A stretch of 21,170 bases of DNA from a virus. The stretch's first letter is position 1. Each line of letters starts with the position of its first letter. The translations under genes and the position numbers were made by a program. The notes under the pieces are model-generated. The model was not told where the DNA came from, did not search any database, and worked only from the letters and a program-made list of their open reading frames with translations. Location: IMG/VR virus record IMGVR_UViG_3300037827_000965, positions 1 through 21,170 of that record; one strand, given 5' to 3'. Of the stretch, positions 6,536 through 19,928 are shown piece by piece.

Positions 6536-7885
6536 TCACACTGAAGATTTAGGTACGCGTACCTCGGGCTGAAACACCTCGACGGTGTTCAGGAGGGGCT
6601 CGACGGCGCCAATCCGGCATCCGGCAATAGTTACCGCGCCCGGGTCGTTGTCGATTCCTATAAAGTCGAAATTCTCAAGCAAGGCCGCGATGCCGGTGGA
6701 CCCCGAGCCCATCAGGATATCGAGCACCGTGCCGCCTGGCGGAGTAACCAGCCGGCAGAGATAGCGCATCAGCTCGACGGGTTTCACGGTTGGCCAGTAG
6801 TTCTCAGAGGTGCGGTCTGTGCCCTCGGCCTGGAACGTGCCAGGCGACTGAACGCCGGACGACCAGTTCATCGGTTTCTTGCCCAGGTGCTCACAGCCGC
6901 GATTTCGTTCTTCCCGGTCCGCCTTCGGACAATAGAAGAATCGCGCGGCGGAGCCGGAGTCACCCTGAAAGGTTGAACCAGCCTCGTCAACGTTGCCGGC
7001 GAACTCTCCGAATACCGAGCGGAATTTGTCGCCATTGCGTACGGTCACCGGAGCCTGGGCGCCGGCATCCTCGGGAAAGAGTTGCACCACCTCGTCGCTG
7101 CCGTCGTGCAGGACATTGGCCGGCCAGCGGCCAAGAGGATCTCCACCGCGCGGGCCTGGAGTGGCCGCAAAATTTGTTGAACCGCTCTCGGTGTACCGCC
7201 TTTCGGAAGAGGATTCGCCGGGGCGGTAATTACCGCCCCGTATATCTGGCCTGGGACCATGGCCAGGTTTATCACCTTCAATCCGGCAGCCGTCTATATT
7301 GAGGGCGCCAGTCCCCCACCTTTGGACGTTCTGCGCCACCGTACCCAGGAACGGCTTTCTGGCCATGCAGATCGGCTCGTGGGCTGGTTTCAGAGCGGTG
7401 CCCCACCCGGCAGCAGCAGCAGCAGCAGCAGTGATTGGGACATCACGGCGTTCGCGGTCTGGCGAGCTACGGCCGTCCCAATCTATATTCTTGCCTCTGA
7501 AATAAGGTGCGGAGGCTTCTTTTGTGATCTCGCGCTGCGCTCCTAACCGTTTGTCGATTGCCTTCGACACATCGAGCGACTTCGGAAATCCCGACCCATA
7601 AATCCACTGCATCTGGTCGCGCACCTCGAACCCTGCATCCTCGATCGCACAGGCGACGCGGTGATAGGTCCGGCTGCCTCCAAAAGCCAGTAGATGGCCT
7701 CCAGGCTTGAGAACCCGCAGGCACTCCCGCCACATCGGAACCGAGTAAGCGATGCCGGTTGAGTCCCAGGCCTTGCCCATAAAGCCGAGTTCATAGGGTG
7801 GATCGGTGACAATTGAGTCCACCGAGTCCGAGTCGAGCTCGGCCAGCCGGTCCAGCACGTGCCCGTAGAGGAGGGTAGCTTTCAC
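6536..7885 (-). CDS. Beta-class DNA adenine/cytosine-N4 methyltransferase
   Basis: A 449-residue DNA methyltransferase that transfers a methyl group from S-adenosylmethionine to an exocyclic amino group of adenine or cytosine. The catalytic DPPY is at residues 28-31. The AdoMet-binding motif DILMGSGSTG comes late (about 389-398), the order that defines the beta class. WGTALKPAHEPI, typical of phage members, lies between. The GTG at 7885 is preferred because it overlaps the stop of the DUF4326 gene (GTGA) and starts right at the conserved region. A run of alanines just before WGTALKPA comes from seven CAG/CTG triplets. No restriction enzyme is next to it, so it is probably an orphan enzyme protecting phage DNA or altering expression. 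Confidence 0.92.
   Translation of the reverse strand: MKATLLYGHVLDRLAELDSDSVDSIVTDPPYELGFMGKAWDSTGIAYSVPMWRECLRVLKPGGHLLAFGGSRTYHRVACAIEDAGFEVRDQMQWIYGSGFPKSLDVSKAIDKRLGAQREITKEASAPYFRGKNIDWDGRSSPDRERRDVPITAAAAAAAGWGTALKPAHEPICMARKPFLGTVAQNVQRWGTGALNIDGCRIEGDKPGHGPRPDIRGGNYRPGESSSERRYTESGSTNFAATPGPRGGDPLGRWPANVLHDGSDEVVQLFPEDAGAQAPVTVRNGDKFRSVFGEFAGNVDEAGSTFQGDSGSAARFFYCPKADREERNRGCEHLGKKPMNWSSGVQSPGTFQAEGTDRTSENYWPTVKPVELMRYLCRLVTPPGGTVLDILMGSGSTGIAALLENFDFIGIDNDPGAVTIAGCRIGAVEPLLNTVEVFQPEVRVPKSSV
7411..7431. repeat. (CAG)7 triplet repeat inside methyltransferase gene
   Basis: Seven perfect CAG units on the plus strand encode a poly-alanine run in the leftward methyltransferase. Slippage would change length by whole codons, so it would not switch the gene off. 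Confidence 0.9.
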
Positions 7886-8175
7886 GAGTTGGCGATCCTC
7901 AGCAGGTCGTCGACGTGACAATCCTCGTCGAGCGAGCAGTAACACATCAAGTCGGCCCCGTGCAGTTTCTCGCGAATGTACAGGTCGCTGGGATAGCCGT
8001 GGAGCGCGCGCAACTCTGGAACCGGCAGCATGGCCCGAAACAGCCCCAAAGCCTCAGTGCGGCCGTAGACCGAGACTTGAAATGGGTTGCCGAACTTGCC
8101 GGGCCGGGTGCAGTTGATGGCCCTGAATGGCTTATGCCAGCCCTTTGTCCGTTTACGCTGGATGCGTTTGGGCAT
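7882..8175 (-). CDS. DUF4326 family protein
   Basis: A 97-residue protein with the pattern of the DUF4326 family: RIQRKRTKGWHKP near the start, RPGKFGNPF in the middle and LMCYCSLDEDCHVDDLLRIAN at the end, with two Cys and a Cys-His pair that could bind metal. The biochemical function of the family is not known to me; it is common in phages and plasmids. The ATG at 8175 has GGAG about 6 bases upstream and gives the usual MPKRIQRKR start; a TTG four codons earlier is less likely. It overlaps the J-domain gene upstream by 23 bases and the methyltransferase start downstream by 4, so the three are probably translated together. Confidence 0.85.
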   Translation of the reverse strand: MPKRIQRKRTKGWHKPFRAINCTRPGKFGNPFQVSVYGRTEALGLFRAMLPVPELRALHGYPSDLYIREKLHGADLMCYCSLDEDCHVDDLLRIANS

Positions 8176-14202: not shown

Positions 14203-14547
14203 CTCCGGTCCAGGGTTCGCGATGACATCGAGAGCCCGGGGCGCCTCGCGGGCGCCAGGCTTGACCGGCCCAGGCTTGAAGGTGACCGGTGTGCCCTCGA
14301 TCCAATCTCCGCGGTTCAACATTTCATGGATGTGCACAAAATACTCCTGCCCGCCGCCCGCAGCCCGGATGAATCCATAGCCCTTTTCCCGGTTGATGCG
14401 GAGCAGGACGCCACGTAAGCGAGTCAGCGAGTCAGCGCCCGCTGCGTTCGCAGACAGGTCGGCAGCGCCCGACCTGCTGCCGCGTACGCCGCGCCGTGTT
14501 GCCGGCCCGTTGACTGGCTGACTGGCTGACTGGCTCGCCCGGGTCAT
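14191..14547 (-). CDS. Cold-shock-domain protein with repeat-derived N-terminus
   Basis: A 118-residue protein. Residues 45-108 form a cold-shock domain that binds single-stranded RNA or DNA: GVLLRINREKGYGFIRAAGG, then EYFVHIHEM, then EGTPVTFKPGP and ALDVI. The aromatic RNA-binding motifs YGFI and YFVH are present. The first 44 residues are Ser/Gln/Ala/Gly rich (SQSASQPVNG) and are encoded by an 8-base-unit palindromic element, so they are not part of the family. The ATG at 14547 overlaps the groEL stop as ATGA, and no good later start precedes the domain, so the tail is probably translated. It may aid phage mRNA translation or folding. Confidence 0.8.
   Translation of the reverse strand: MTRASQSASQPVNGPATRRGVRGSRSGAADLSANAAGADSLTRLRGVLLRINREKGYGFIRAAGGGQEYFVHIHEMLNRGDWIEGTPVTFKPGPVKPGAREAPRALDVIANPGPEAKP
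14416..14538. repeat. Octad palindromic element inside coding sequence
   Basis: Three perfect GACTGGCT units (14512-14535) face two AGTCAGCG units (14422-14437), which are the reverse complement of GACTCGCT, so the arms pair with one mismatch per 8 bases. The centre holds a perfect 8-base hairpin CAGGTCGG / CCGACCTG (14455-14476). The plan resembles the heptad elements, but the unit length and sequence differ. Confidence 0.8.
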
Positions 14548-16274
14548 GGCTGGCCTCCCGGCCTGAGCCCTGGCCCCTGTTCCCTGGCTGCCGTATCCAG
14601 GACGTCGACCACCATGCCCGCGGAGGTGAGCAGGAGACCGGCCAGTTCCCCGGCATTCTCGAGCGCCAGCCGGACCACCTTGACGGGGTCGACGATGCCG
14701 TACCCGACTAAATCTTGATATTCATCCATGGCCGCGTTCCAGCCCCACTGCGCCGCCGGCCCGCAGAGACCATTGCGCATCTCGTGTTTTCCCAGGTGGC
14801 GCCGCATCCACTTTTCAGGGTCGTTCATTGCTTGGACTTCGCCGACGATGATATCGCCGCTCTGGCCGCAGTTGGTTGCCAGTTGATGCAATGGGGCGGT
14901 CAAGGCCCGGGCGACGATCTGGGCGCCTATCCTGCGGTCGCCGTCCATGGTCAGGATGAGCTCCGACAGCGCCGGCAGGCAGCGGATCAGCGCCGTGCCC
15001 CCGCCGGGCACCACACCCTCCTGGAGCGCGCCGATGGTGGCATTGAGCGAGTCTTCGCAGCGGTCCCGCTTCTCGAGCAACTTCGAATTGACCAGTGAGC
15101 CAATTTTGATGACCGCGATCGAGGCGCAGAGCCCGGCCAGGCGGCGCTCGAGCTGAGCCCGGACGAACTCCTTGGTCTCAGGGTCTTTAATCCGCGATCG
15201 CAACTCGTCTTTGCGGGTTTCAACGACGATGGGATTGCCCCGGCCACCGATGATAGTGGTGCGGTGCGGGGTGACGATGACTTTATCCGCAGCCCCAAAA
15301 TCTTCAAGCTTAGCTTTTTCCGGTTGGTCGCCGCGGGCTACCATGTAGGGCCGGGCCCCGGTGAGCGCGGCGATATCTTCAAGCGACTCCTTTTTGTCGG
15401 TGCCCGAGCCTGGGGCGCGCACCGGGCAGACCATGAGCGCGAGCGCAGAGCCGTCCGGGAGCCGGCCGCCCGCCAGAATCTGGAGCGCAGCGCCCTCAAC
15501 ATCTTCGGCGATGATGAGCAGCGGGGTCTTGTTGAGGGCGTCGACGTACATCTGGATGAGAGTCTGAGTTTGTTTTTGGTCGATCAGCCGCCGGTCGGTG
15601 ACGAAGATGCGGCAGTTCTCGTAAACTGTCATTCCGCGGGTGCGGTCGGTGACGAACGTTGGGGATATGAACCCGCGCTCGAACTGGAGGCCGTCGGAGA
15701 CTTCCAGGGTAGTTTGGCTGGTCGGCGAGGGGTCGAGGGTGTAATTGCCTTCAAGCCCGGCCAGGTGGACGGCCTTGCCGATCACTTCGCCGACTTCGAC
15801 TTCGCCGTTGGCGGCGACGGTGGCAACCGCGACCAGTTGGGCCAGATCGGCCTGCTCAAATTTGACGGCCATGGCTTTCAAGGTTTGGACCACCCGCTCG
15901 ATCGCGAGCGAGATGCCCCGTTCGACGGCCTGGGAGTCGGCGCCGGCGGTGACCTGCCGCAGGCCTTCGCGAAAAATGGCCCGGGTGAGGATGGTGGCGG
16001 CGGTGGTGCCGTCGCCGGCCATGGTGTTGGTTTTGGCGGCGACCTCCTGGATAAGCTTCGCGCCCTCATTCTCAAACGAGTCGGGAAGTGAGATGTTGCG
16101 CGCGACCGTGACCCCATCCTTGGTGACCAGGGCCGCGGCGTGGAGTCCTGCCTGGCGGCCGAGGATGACGGTCTGGCCTTTGGGCCCCAGGGTGGAACCA
16201 ACCAGGTCGGCGACGACGTTCATGCCGGCCAGCACCGCGTTGCGGGAATCGTCTTTAAGTTTGATCTGCTTCAT
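14544..16274 (-). CDS. groL: Phage-encoded GroEL-type chaperonin (Hsp60)
   Basis: A 576-residue group I chaperonin that would fold proteins in an ATP-driven ring. The family marks are in place: TLGPKG near residue 25, GDGTTAATIL near 87 (ATP binding), an apical domain with RGFISPTFV, LLIIAEDVEG near 257, CEDSLNATIGALQEG with the catalytic Asp, and VPGGGTALIR near 388. The usual GGM-rich C-terminal tail is absent; it ends REQGPGLRPGGQP. The sequence is clearly diverged from normal bacterial GroEL. The ATG at 16274 overlaps the stop of the secreted coiled-coil gene upstream (ATGA); the frame beyond it is non-family. No GroES is in the window, so it may use the host's, or one elsewhere in the phage. 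Confidence 0.93.
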   Translation of the reverse strand: MKQIKLKDDSRNAVLAGMNVVADLVGSTLGPKGQTVILGRQAGLHAAALVTKDGVTVARNISLPDSFENEGAKLIQEVAAKTNTMAGDGTTAATILTRAIFREGLRQVTAGADSQAVERGISLAIERVVQTLKAMAVKFEQADLAQLVAVATVAANGEVEVGEVIGKAVHLAGLEGNYTLDPSPTSQTTLEVSDGLQFERGFISPTFVTDRTRGMTVYENCRIFVTDRRLIDQKQTQTLIQMYVDALNKTPLLIIAEDVEGAALQILAGGRLPDGSALALMVCPVRAPGSGTDKKESLEDIAALTGARPYMVARGDQPEKAKLEDFGAADKVIVTPHRTTIIGGRGNPIVVETRKDELRSRIKDPETKEFVRAQLERRLAGLCASIAVIKIGSLVNSKLLEKRDRCEDSLNATIGALQEGVVPGGGTALIRCLPALSELILTMDGDRRIGAQIVARALTAPLHQLATNCGQSGDIIVGEVQAMNDPEKWMRRHLGKHEMRNGLCGPAAQWGWNAAMDEYQDLVGYGIVDPVKVVRLALENAGELAGLLLTSAGMVVDVLDTAAREQGPGLRPGGQP

Positions 16275-16702
16275 TTGGCCGGGACCTCTTTCGCCGGCGC
16301 CGGCGCTTTGTCGGTAGGCTTGGGAATGGCGATGAGGGTGCGTTTCACCGGCTCCCAATGGAAGCCGGGATGCTCAGATTCGATTTTTTTGATCAGGGCG
16401 GTGTAGTCCTGGAGGATCTGGTCCTGTTGCTTGCGGGTGGCGTCGCGCTCCGAGGGCAGGCGTTTCAATTGTTCATCGATCGACTGCAGGGCCTGGGCAA
16501 GAACGGTGGCCTTCAATTGCAGATTCTCGATTTTCAGGAGCTCGGTTTCGGTGGGTTGGGGGAGTGCCTCGGCGGGTGTATGCAGGTCTGTACCGATCTG
16601 CGGATTTTTGCCGGTGGCGACGGGGTGGGCAGTTTGAGCCAGGGAGGGTGGGGCGGACAGCAGCGACGCGAGCAGAAAAACCGGGAGCAATTCAATTTTC
16701 AC
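16271..16702 (-). CDS. Secreted or periplasmic coiled-coil protein
   Basis: A 143-residue protein that starts at a GTG (16702) with an excellent AAGGAG 6 bases upstream. Residues 1-23 are a signal peptide (IELLPVFLLASLLSAPPSLAQ, with an Ala-Gln cleavage region). Residues 50-110 are a coiled coil with regular Leu/Ile spacing (LLKIENLQLKATVLAQAL and SIDEQLKRLPSE), and the tail is Pro/Ala/Lys rich. A short exported coiled-coil protein in a phage may be a spanin-like or envelope-interacting protein, but no lysis gene is nearby and no family is recognised. It overlaps groEL by 4 bases, so an exported protein and a chaperonin are translated together. Confidence 0.7.
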   Translation of the reverse strand: MKIELLPVFLLASLLSAPPSLAQTAHPVATGKNPQIGTDLHTPAEALPQPTETELLKIENLQLKATVLAQALQSIDEQLKRLPSERDATRKQQDQILQDYTALIKKIESEHPGFHWEPVKRTLIAIPKPTDKAPAPAKEVPAK

Positions 16703-17254: not shown

Positions 17255-17328
17255 GTGACACGTGACAGATGGTAGATGACAGTTTTCAGGGCCCGGGCTT
17301 TCACTGTAATCTGTCATCTGTAACCTGT
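17255..17328. repeat. Heptad palindromic element, copy 7
   Basis: Left arm about 17255-17283 (ACACGTG, ACAGATG, GTAGATG, ACAG), right arm 17304-17328 (CTGTAAT, CTGTCAT, CTGTAAC, CTG) around CAGGGCCCGGGCTTTC. The stops of both frames of the methyltransferase locus (17314 and 17301) lie in it. Confidence 0.9.
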
Positions 17329-18383
17329 TTCAAGGTGCGCTTTGATGAAGGCCGTCGCAACTTCGATATTGATTGCATCGCCATACAGGCGAAGCCGTCC
17401 CAGGCGGCAGGGATCGCCATGAGCCAGCGGGAATGTCCCGCTCTCAACTGGCCGCCACTTTCCATCCCGGCAGAGGAGCCAGTCAGCATCTCGCCATGGG
17501 CCGTTAAGCGGGCTGGACCGTTGGCGAACTTCACCGCGTGCTCCAAAGATGCCGTGTGTTTCCTGCCGTCCTTCGTCTTCCCCGTCGCATCCATCGCTTC
17601 CGTTGACATCGAGCGGCCGCCGTTCGGGGTACAGGGGGATGGCCAGCCCGCTAACTCCGCATCGATCCCCAGATCCGCGCAACCGTGCTTCGTTCCGTGA
17701 ATCTCTTTCTGGGTCTTCGAGCGGCCCGTCGCATCGTGCGCCTGCGGAGTTGTCCACCCCGCCAGGGTCGCTTCCACGCTCAAGTTGTGGCCCCGCGTCT
17801 CCGCTTGCTGTATCTCTAAAAACTCCGGACTCGCACTCGCACTCTTGTAATCCCGCTGGTTGGGCGCCGGCCAGCCCGCCAGCGTCGACGCCATGCCCAG
17901 TGTCAGGCCGAAGCCGTTCTGTCCATGGGTTTCCTTGCATTCCTGACGGCGTTGCTCCCAGTTGGCATCGGTCAGGTTCATTCCCGTGTCTGGACTCGGC
18001 CACGAAGTAAAGCCGCTGCCGGATATCCGCCCCGCCGACACTGCACGTTCCAAGTACGATCTTCCCAACGGCGTACGCCTGCGCTTCCAGGTCAGTTTGA
18101 ACAAGGTCGAGCCAGCCGTATCCAATGCTGTCATCAGCCTGTTCTCCAAAGATTGTTGCAGGGCGGCGCTTTCGGATGAGTTTCTCCCAATCCGGCCAGA
18201 GGTGGCGAGGGTCATCAAACCCTTGGCCTTTGCCCGCTGCCGAGAAACTGGGGCAGGGGCAGCTTCCGGTCCAGACGAGCCGGTCGTCTGGCCAGCCGGC
18301 GTTCCGGAGGGCGAGCGACCAGAATCCGCCGCCGGCGAAGAAGTGGCATTGGGTGTATCCCAGAAGCTCGTCTGGTTTGACAT
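17301..18383 (-). CDS. Overlapping frame: WPTP / WLMG-type phage protein
   Basis: A 360-residue frame, shifted +1 relative to the cytosine methyltransferase, on the same strand over almost its full length. It has the pattern of a phage family I recognise: TSG..SS.SAALQ.SLENRL, then GSTLFKLTWKRRRTPLGR, three repeats of LAGWxxPxxxD (AGWPAPNQRD, AGWTTPQAHD, AGWPSPCTP), and the end GGQLRAGHSRWLMAIPAAWD. The ATG at 18383 has its own AGAGGAG 8 bases upstream. The tail VTDDRLQ is from repeat copy 7. Alternatively it may be a non-coding shadow that keeps a family look because the methyltransferase below it is conserved. No function is known to me. Confidence 0.5.
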   Translation of the reverse strand: MSNQTSFWDTPNATSSPAADSGRSPSGTPAGQTTGSSGPEAAPAPVSRQRAKAKGLMTLATSGRIGRNSSESAALQQSLENRLMTALDTAGSTLFKLTWKRRRTPLGRSYLERAVSAGRISGSGFTSWPSPDTGMNLTDANWEQRRQECKETHGQNGFGLTLGMASTLAGWPAPNQRDYKSASASPEFLEIQQAETRGHNLSVEATLAGWTTPQAHDATGRSKTQKEIHGTKHGCADLGIDAELAGWPSPCTPNGGRSMSTEAMDATGKTKDGRKHTASLEHAVKFANGPARLTAHGEMLTGSSAGMESGGQLRAGHSRWLMAIPAAWDGFACMAMQSISKLRRPSSKRTLKQVTDDRLQ

Positions 18384-18492
18384 CTTTGATGCTCCTCTCG
18401 TCGACCACCCCATCCGCAACAGCCCCGGCCTTGATCGCTTCGCGGATGACCTGGGCTTTGAACGGGTCGGGCTCGTTGTACCAGGCCGTCAT
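17314..18492 (-). CDS. C5-cytosine DNA methyltransferase
   Basis: A 392-residue enzyme that adds a methyl group to carbon 5 of cytosine in DNA using S-adenosylmethionine. HFFAGGGFWSLALRNAGW is motif I (AdoMet binding; residues about 49-66), GSCPCPSFSAAGKG has the catalytic Pro-Cys of motif IV, FGEQ stands for motif VI (usually ENV), and VGGADIRQRLYFVA is motif VIII. The C-terminal end (WLLCRDGKWRPVESGTFPLAHG, then GRLRLYGDAI) is the form common in phage enzymes. Between them lies a Gly/Asp/Ser-rich stretch of low complexity, where the other frame looks more protein-like. The ATG at 18492 overlaps the HD gene stop (ATGA). The last residues and stop are in repeat copy 7. Confidence 0.9.
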   Translation of the reverse strand: MTAWYNEPDPFKAQVIREAIKAGAVADGVVDERSIKDVKPDELLGYTQCHFFAGGGFWSLALRNAGWPDDRLVWTGSCPCPSFSAAGKGQGFDDPRHLWPDWEKLIRKRRPATIFGEQADDSIGYGWLDLVQTDLEAQAYAVGKIVLGTCSVGGADIRQRLYFVAESRHGNEPDRCQLGATPSGMQGNPWTERLRPDTGHGVDAGGLAGAQPAGLQECECESGVFRDTASGDAGPQLERGSDPGGVDNSAGARCDGPLEDPERDSRNEARLRGSGDRCGVSGLAIPLYPERRPLDVNGSDGCDGEDEGRQETHGIFGARGEVRQRSSPLNGPWRDADWLLCRDGKWRPVESGTFPLAHGDPCRLGRLRLYGDAINIEVATAFIKAHLETGYR

Positions 18493-19121
18493 TTAGGCAC
18501 AGCCGGCCCGCAGTTCATGGTGCACACACTCCGGCCCCGAATCAGCATACAGTCGCCACACTTCAAAGCTTCCGGCGGATCCAAAGTCAGCAGGACTTCC
18601 CTGGCTCGGATGTACCGCAATTGCAAGCTTTCCATCTTCCCCAGATCGACACCACGGGCCAGAGCCCAGGCCTGACGTTCAGGATTCATATTGTCATTCA
18701 GATCCGCCAATTTGACCTTGCGGGCCATGGGGAGCCGGGCGGCCCGGCCGATGTAGGCTTCGTATTCTTCGTTGGGGCCGCGGGTCAATGCGCAGACAGC
18801 CTGAAAGATATCCGTGTCGCCGTTGACGGCCAGCAGCACCTCGGCATCTGGAGTTTCGGAGTCTTCGAAGACGTCGTGCAATATCCCCGCAATGCAGGCG
18901 TCGACGTCCGGCAGCAGGGAAAAACCGACCCGGAGCACGTGCCAGATGTAGGGCGAGCCGCCTTTGTCGAGCTGCCCGGCGTGAGCCTTGATGGCTAACT
19001 TGATGGCCCGGCTGATGGCTGCCCATTCCAGATGCTGGATGGCCGCGCGGGCCAGTTGGGTGACGGAGATTTTGGTTTGAGGATCGAGCGCTTGACAGTT
19101 GGTGACGACGGGATTCTTCAT
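18489..19121 (-). CDS. HD-domain hydrolase, SpoT/RelA-like
   Basis: A 210-residue protein with the HD metal-dependent phosphohydrolase pattern: AIKAHAGQ (about 44-50), SPYIWHVLRV with H61, GILHDVFEDSE with H82-D83, and KLADLNDN with D140. The spacing and wording fit the hydrolase domain of SpoT/RelA-type (p)ppGpp enzymes and their small phage versions; no synthetase domain is present. It could remove alarmone or another nucleotide signal, but the substrate is not shown. The C-terminal 30 residues have three Cys (CGDCMLIRGRSVC) that may bind metal. The ATG at 19121 has GAGGAAT close upstream, right after the PP-loop gene's stop. It overlaps the methyltransferase start by 4 bases. Confidence 0.82.
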   Translation of the reverse strand: MKNPVVTNCQALDPQTKISVTQLARAAIQHLEWAAISRAIKLAIKAHAGQLDKGGSPYIWHVLRVGFSLLPDVDACIAGILHDVFEDSETPDAEVLLAVNGDTDIFQAVCALTRGPNEEYEAYIGRAARLPMARKVKLADLNDNMNPERQAWALARGVDLGKMESLQLRYIRAREVLLTLDPPEALKCGDCMLIRGRSVCTMNCGPAVPK

Positions 19122-19127
19122 ATTCCT

Positions 19128-19928
19128 CTACTCGCACAGGTTGTAGACGCTCATGCACGAGCGCGCAGGAAACATCGGCAGTTGGTTCTCATCCACACTT
19201 TCGAGATAGCGGAACACATCGTCGCACCAAGGGAAAGGCTTCTGGCTCTTCACATCAAAGCCAGTGCAGAATCGTGCGGGAATATAGGTAGGCTCAAAGA
19301 AATTATGGGCTACGAGCTTTTCGAGTGACCGAAGTCTGTCCTTAAGTTCCCCCGCAAGCGGGCCTTTCAGGTAAGCCTTAAGCTCTCCCATGTTGACCAT
19401 CACGCACGGGAAGCAGCCCACACGCTTTGCCCCCATCAGGTAAAGAGGATTGGGCTTGATTCCCCATTTCGCTGCCAGCGCAAAGCACTGCTCTGCGGTC
19501 CACAAGAGCAATGGGCGTTCAATCCATGCGTCATAGTCATCGCTCCACTGGCGCGGCAACATCCGGGATCGACTCTCCGATTCATCAGCGCGGATGCCTT
19601 GATAGACAGTCACTTCATCATCCAGCGTCTTGAGCCAATCGATCATCGGGCGCACCTTGAGGGCTTCAGTGCAGAAGCGCGCCTTCGCCGAAGGCGCGCG
19701 GCCCTTCAAAACACACAAATCCACGAAGCCGTTTTCGTACTTCTGACTACGCAGAGTGATAACGCCCAACCCTAAAGCCTGATTCACCTCTTCGACGTAG
19801 GCGTTTGTGATTGAGACTTCCCAACCTGTATCGCAGAAGACGGTAGTGAACTCAGGCAGGTTTTCCTTCGCCCACAACACAAGGGCTGTCGAGTCCTTGC
19901 CGCCGCTAAAGCAAACGATCGCTTTCAC
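19128..19928 (-). CDS. PAPS-reductase-like PP-loop protein
   Basis: A 266-residue protein of the phosphoadenosine phosphosulfate reductase/PP-loop ATP pyrophosphatase family. SGGKDS (8-13) is the ATP-binding loop. FCDTGWE, KARFCTEALKVRPM, YQGIRADES and VGCFPCVM follow, with Cys residues that may bind a metal or an Fe-S cluster. The reaction could be sulfur activation or transfer in nucleic-acid modification, as in DndC-type proteins, or sulfate metabolism; no Dnd neighbours are seen. The GTG at 19928 overlaps the stop of the small membrane protein upstream (GTGA). The family is clear; the exact substrate is unknown. Confidence 0.88.
   Translation of the reverse strand: MKAIVCFSGGKDSTALVLWAKENLPEFTTVFCDTGWEVSITNAYVEEVNQALGLGVITLRSQKYENGFVDLCVLKGRAPSAKARFCTEALKVRPMIDWLKTLDDEVTVYQGIRADESESRSRMLPRQWSDDYDAWIERPLLLWTAEQCFALAAKWGIKPNPLYLMGAKRVGCFPCVMVNMGELKAYLKGPLAGELKDRLRSLEKLVAHNFFEPTYIPARFCTGFDVKSQKPFPWCDDVFRYLESVDENQLPMFPARSCMSVYNLCE

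Follow-up and report, generated by a model that had tools for sequence, protein, structure and literature searches.

Sequence evidence for a kilobase-long gene overprinted in the +1 frame of a phage C5-cytosine methyltransferase gene

The DNA analysed here (the window) is an IMG/VR virus record of 21 kb (21,170 nt). It contains an ORF for a C5-cytosine methyltransferase (F1) and, in the +1 frame of the same strand, a second ORF (F2) that shares 1070 nt of DNA with it (Table 1). The distribution of stop codons and substitutions across relatives indicates that purifying selection acts on both frames, i.e. that F2 is an overprinted gene. That F2 is a real gene under selection we hold to be nearly certain; no translation data are available. 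The earlier note on this DNA had left two options, a long overprinted gene or a shadow that had entered the databases, and the data favour the former. Sequence comparison indicates that hundreds of phages and prophages encode two proteins in this way.

Table 1. Coordinates of F1, F2 and their parts in the window.
Feature	Position	Strand	Remarks
F1, predicted C5-cytosine methyltransferase ORF, 392 aa	17314..18492	(-)	ATG 18492 to TGA 17314
F1 motif I, CHFFAGGGFW	18319..18348	(-)	sequence and alignment
F1 motif IV with catalytic Cys, CPCPSFSAAG	18232..18261	(-)	hmmsearch to M.HhaI
F1 motif VI region, FGEQA	18136..18150	(-)	sequence and alignment
F1 motif VIII, RQRLYFVA; final conserved block ahead of the middle	17998..18021	(-)	sequence and alignment
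Linker in the middle of F1, rich in Gly/Asp/Arg, not conserved and predicted to be disordered; occupies the TRD position	17527..17985	(-)	alignment, AF2, phase test
F1 motif X, GRLRLYGDAI	17371..17400	(-)	sequence; in the family, the C-terminal part aligned with motif X of canonical enzymes, E 0.005
F2, inferred overprinted +1-frame gene, 360 codons	17301..18383	(-)	ATG 18383 to TGA 17301
F2 Shine-Dalgarno (SD) sequence, AGGAG	18392..18396	(-)	8 nt upstream of the F2 ATG
F2 N-terminal part (LSARQAK / LQxSL / LTWKxxxTPxGR region)	18003..18383	(-)	identity exceeds the F1-preserving null
F2 cassette 1, 39 aa	17874..17990	(-)	
F2 cassette 2, 35 aa	17757..17861	(-)	type common to L158 and L184
F2 cassette 3, 33 aa	17646..17744	(-)	type common to L095 and L143
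F2 cassette 4, 37 aa	17523..17633	(-)	type common to L127 and L185
F2 motif IX-like block, QLRAGHSRWLMAIPAAWD	17397..17450	(-)	family consensus GQLNPAHSRWLMGLPPEWD; hhalign to canonical motif IX, weak, E 0.03-0.2

The start codon of F1 overlaps the stop of the upstream gene as ATGA. F1 matches PF00145 (E 4e-9) and phrog_363 (E 2e-58), and the methyltransferase motifs that had been noticed in the main frame are there as motifs I, IV, VI, VIII and X. The +1 frame had been described as having its own ATG, a ribosome site and 360 codons without a stop, all of which were found, together with the quoted motifs: LTWK...TPLGR within LTWKRRRTPLGR, HSRWLMxxPxxWD within HSRWLMAIPAAWD, and the AGWxxP repeats as four spacers (WPSP, WPAP, WTTP and WPSP). 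The longer F2 ORF matches phrog_1008 (E 7e-23) and phrog_31772 (E 3e-25), both of which carry the label 'DNA methyltransferase'. These labels on F2 are database echoes of the overlap, and the protein behind them is real.

Directly upstream of F1, positions 18489-19928 (-) encode an HD/SpoT-like phosphohydrolase and a PAPS-reductase/QueC-like protein, the latter resembling SspD, BrxP and DndC models. A phage-encoded GroEL-like chaperonin lies at 14544-16358 (-) (phrog_5725, E 1e-114), and a second DNA methyltransferase of a different class at 6536-7945 (-) (phrog_67, E 3e-66). When this second methylase gene was translated in three frames, the other two frames held many stops.

Relatives were picked from viral contigs and bacterial genomes via F1 peptides alone, using patterns that lie partly inside the overlap. 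The regions for stop counts were defined by F1 only, not by the F2 ORF, and the expected number of stops was obtained by shuffling synonymous F1 codons. For the window alone, 2.45 stops were expected in the +1 frame, so that their absence is only mildly unlikely (P(0) = 0.028). Across 147 distinct F1-selected relatives, the F2 frame contained 7 stops versus 421 expected and was stop-free in 141 loci versus 7 expected. There was no depletion in the third frame of the same relatives (1855 stops versus 1644 expected). Within the N-terminal and middle parts of F2 there were 0 stops versus 244 expected, with 1143 in the third frame, and in the loci checked the residual F2-frame stops fall beyond the end of F2. 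A set of 24 ordinary C5-methylases gave 272 stops versus 276.8 expected, with none open; since these stand at chance level, the open +1 frame is specific to genes of the F1/F2 type and not a property of C5-methylases generally.

An in-frame stop in F1, with F2 intact over the same stretch, was seen in loci L027, L028, L030, L031, L128, L129 and L175. These may be decaying prophages, or F2 may have been kept alone.

Position 3 of F1 codons is position 2 of F2 codons, and position 1 of F1 is position 3 of F2; the phase of substitutions therefore tells the two frames apart. The shuffle nulls ignore shared ancestry, and the phase test, made on independent pairs with each locus used once, is independent of such nulls. 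Before the F2 start, F1 position 3 was ahead in 79/80 pairs, with 888 changes versus 219 at position 1. Both frames were constrained in the N-terminal overlap (2180 changes at F1 position 3 versus 1018 at position 1) and again at the C-terminus, where the pairs divided 34:34 and the changes 405 versus 385. In the middle the pattern was inverted, with F1 position 1 (equivalent to F2 position 3) winning in 66/66 pairs (1002 versus 218 changes), which in such a comparison is the signature of constraint on F2 only. When the amino acids of F1 were kept constant, F2 identity was 0.49 versus 0.34 under the null for the N-terminal part and 0.61 versus 0.38 for the C-terminal part; a non-overlapping control gave 0.31 versus 0.30. 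Over its first ~37 codons F2 shows little excess conservation; from the LSARQAK region onward the excess is large. The earlier note's guess of a hand-over of constraint between the frames is exactly the substitution-phase pattern. The note had noticed that F2 resembles a phage family, without recognizing its likely role. What it had named as refutation, common stops in the second frame and dN/dS near 1, did not materialize: virtually all relatives keep F2 open, and substitutions that are nonsynonymous in F2 are strongly reduced.

The start signals of F2 impose demands on F1 codons. The F2 ATG falls within an F1 Asp-Val pair and requires that Asp be encoded by GAT, which was the case at 140/171 such sites versus 443/1316 elsewhere (P about 1e-34). 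The F2 SD requires an F1 Arg encoded by AGG or CGG, and the rare AGG was used at 63/185 of these sites versus 23/956 elsewhere (P about 1e-35). An SD was present in 95/144 loci with the F2 ATG and in 1/39 without it. These codon biases indicate that the start signals are selected; translation itself is undemonstrated. In EBPR siphovirus 2 (gp44, locus L457), F1 residues ~80-455 are occupied by an intein, which carries a LAGLIDADG domain and splits F1 at the catalytic Pro-Cys (CPC...VHN|CQPFS); it also interrupts the upstream part of F2, and the F2 ORF downstream of the intein has its own ATG. Because the start signals are selected and this downstream ORF contains an ATG of its own, F2 is most simply read as a separate protein.

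Two other accounts of the open frame were weighed. F2 could be an untranslated shadow, kept open and conserved by the codon constraint on F1 and placed in databases through automatic annotation. Such a shadow would fit the absence of a Pfam or NCBIfam family for F2, the PHROG label that merely repeats the name of the methylase, and the P(0) value for the window taken alone. We give it hardly any credence, since the stop depletion in F2 is not seen in ordinary C5-methylases, the F1-synonymous positions are the slowest ones in the middle in all 66 pairs (which already refutes a shadow), F2 is conserved beyond what F1 demands, and its SD and ATG are selected. Separately, a chance ORF arising from GC content or from F1 codons was ruled out by the shuffle nulls, the canonical controls and the phase. 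Ribosomal frameshifting from F1 into F2 would instead yield one fused methylase, with F1 motifs I-VIII followed by the F2 cassettes and motif IX. This would follow the order of monomeric C5-methylases and would agree with a middle constrained in F2 only. It is nevertheless improbable, given that F2 starts from an SD and ATG of its own that are under selection, that F2 is constrained upstream of any shift site, and that F1 is open across the whole middle with motif X in its own frame. The intein in F1 of EBPR siphovirus 2, which breaks F2 and leaves a downstream F2 ORF with its own ATG, also stands against it.

F1 is a C5-cytosine methyltransferase by its motifs and predicted fold. Its AF2 model aligned with M.HhaI at Z 14.4 and rmsd 3.2 over 168 residues, and residues 1-168 are confidently folded in an M.HhaI-like manner. 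Residues from about 170 to 333 are predicted to be disordered (pLDDT about 43 for ~170-330), the phase test detected no F1 constraint in the middle, and residues from about 170 to 322 are unconserved in the alignment. On the model and the alignment, F1 is without a folded target-recognition domain (TRD) between motifs VIII and IX, where it has a disordered linker of variable length. No match to motif IX was found in F1, the C-terminal part aligning only to motif X; this is a weak profile match and no proof of absence.

The order of motifs in F1 also looks rearranged. A II/III-like segment (YNExDP..GDVDERSI) stands ahead of motif I (window 18492-18319, residues 1-58), motif IV follows motif I almost directly, and the structural alignment pairs residue 1 of the model with M.HhaI residue 34, which lies beyond the HhaI motif I.

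In its middle, the F2 protein carries cassettes of ~30 aa (about 25-42 aa) with AGWPTP-like spacers between them, and the cassette DNA coincides with the unconserved linker of F1, where the TRD of a C5-methylase belongs. Among 149 F2 proteins, 487 cassettes of 133 types were counted, with 1-8 per protein and four in that of the window. Cassette types occur in any slot, and no type was found twice in one protein (0 versus 14.6 expected; minimum 4 in 2000 shuffles). Between the Xanthomonas phages PhiXhv-18 and PhiXhv-7 (L087 and L088), a clean 99-bp deletion removes one cassette and keeps both frames. The cassettes are thus modular, exchanged and non-redundant.

The terminal block of F2, GQLNPAHSRWLMGLPPEWD, aligns weakly in three families with canonical motif IX, RRLTPRECARLMGFP (hhalign, E 0.03-0.2). 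In controls with permuted columns this score was exceeded at least once, and 35/300 of them also landed on motif IX. Searches of Pfam and NCBIfam found no family for F2, and a profile search of the PDB gave no solved structure matching it. The AF2 model of F2 is of low confidence (mean pLDDT 60); residues 70-117 form a helix and hairpin with pLDDT 81-91. Foldseek comparison of the model with a viral library gave four matches below E 0.001, apparently other F2-type proteins.

A homologous F2 is also carried as a +1 ORF by two more families of C5-methylases, whose motif I stands ahead of motif IV at conventional spacing. No F2 stops occurred from motif IV to motif X in 74 and 73 loci; in the middle these families likewise show the inverted phase, and they have F2 matches to phrog_1008 and some cassettes in common. 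Conservation of the N-terminal part was uninformative in family B, represented there by 12 non-redundant, closely related sequences. In one bacterial phylum, F2 matches were found in 24/398 genomes, and all loci fetched from those 24 genomes except L288, a weak F2 match, also match the F1 model in the overlapping frame. All 15 plasmid records with F2 (15/15) were also among the F1 matches. The check proposed in the earlier note, a search for the second family without the methyltransferase, accordingly turned up no clear case, only the weak match L288 being unresolved.

Annotation in GenBank varies among F1 only, both genes (K1G, PhiXhv-18) and F2 only (PhiXhv-7, in which F2 is a hypothetical protein and F1 is not annotated). 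In K1 phages, F2 is annotated only as 'Mte8-like'. Our literature search found no description of this phage F1/F2 overlap. In Edwardsiella phage eiAU (L454, 1225-2649), F2 runs stop-free into a Dam N6-adenine methylase (PF05869, E 1e-40), possibly a natural fusion.

The role that we favour, with some reserve, is that F1 and F2 form a two-protein cytosine methyltransferase in which F1 is catalytic and F2 gives the target-recognition cassettes and a motif IX-like element. F1 would be the catalytic chain, with the SAM-binding and catalytic motifs I-VIII and X. F2, whose ribosome site lies within F1, would be translated in the +1 frame and contribute an array of exchangeable cassettes and the motif IX-like element, completing the small domain. 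Paired with F1, it would direct methylation to several sequences, which would probably protect the phage DNA from host restriction. That F1 and F2 physically associate, that the cassettes recognize targets and that the enzyme has several specificities is inferred, without biochemical data. Alternatively, F2 might be a genuine protein in its own right that does something other than recognition, such as antirestriction or DNA mimicry; it would then travel with the methylase, and its cassettes would vary to match host restriction. The variety and non-redundancy of the cassettes would fit such an arms race equally, and F2 has no solved fold. We consider this doubtful without dismissing it, because no clear case of F2 without a C5-methylase was seen, its cassettes lie exactly at the missing TRD of F1, its C-terminus aligns, weakly, to motif IX, and in eiAU it is continuous with the Dam adenine methylase. 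Beyond the two-protein methyltransferase itself, there may be a widespread phage and prophage class in which target recognition has moved from the enzyme into an overlapping gene, with shifted-frame cassette arrays, exchanged between phages and at least three C5-methylase families, reprogramming a linker-bearing catalytic chain; this broader statement could with equal chance prove right or wrong.

To our knowledge, it is rare for two genes to overlap on one strand by more than 1 kb with selection acting on both, and most reports of such overlaps rest on one genome. The evidence for the F1/F2 overlap comes from hundreds of loci and three enzyme families and includes a clean transfer of constraint between the frames. 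It would explain many phage proteins annotated as methyltransferase or hypothetical, and its loci are a ready test bed for the evolution of overlapping genes. For cytosine methylation, the cassettes would provide recognition modules that are natural and can be swapped.

PHROGs 1008, 31772 and 27243 bear the label 'DNA methyltransferase' or unknown, and no catalytic motif is seen in the F2 members that match them. In the multi-specific phage C5-methylases SPR, phi3T and rho11s, recognition modules of ~30-40 aa stand in tandem between motifs VIII and IX; they are exchangeable and all lie in the methylase frame. F2 likewise has tandem exchangeable modules at the TRD position, but they lie in the overlapping frame. 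For M.EcoHK31I, we take the small ORF to lie inside the large ORF in another frame. M.EcoHK31I is a C5-methylase (YGGCCR) of two polypeptides, a large chain with motifs I-VIII and X, in which the TRD is predicted, and a small chain with motif IX (PMC3404938). The same source describes M.AquI as a C5-methylase of alpha and beta polypeptides that divide the catalytic motifs from the TRD and motif IX parts, beta carrying motifs IX and X (PMC3404938). F1/F2 resembles M.AquI in that the function would be split over two polypeptides, and differs from it in keeping motif X on F1 and in having a 1070-nt overlap. Like the large chain of M.EcoHK31I, F1 has motifs I-VIII and X, in an altered order; unlike in that enzyme, its TRD region is unconserved and predicted disordered, and the modules are in F2. 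Neither the M.EcoHK31I precedent nor the multi-TRD one fits F1/F2 fully, and because its large chain is without a TRD, F1/F2 is a variant of the M.EcoHK31I type rather than a member of it.
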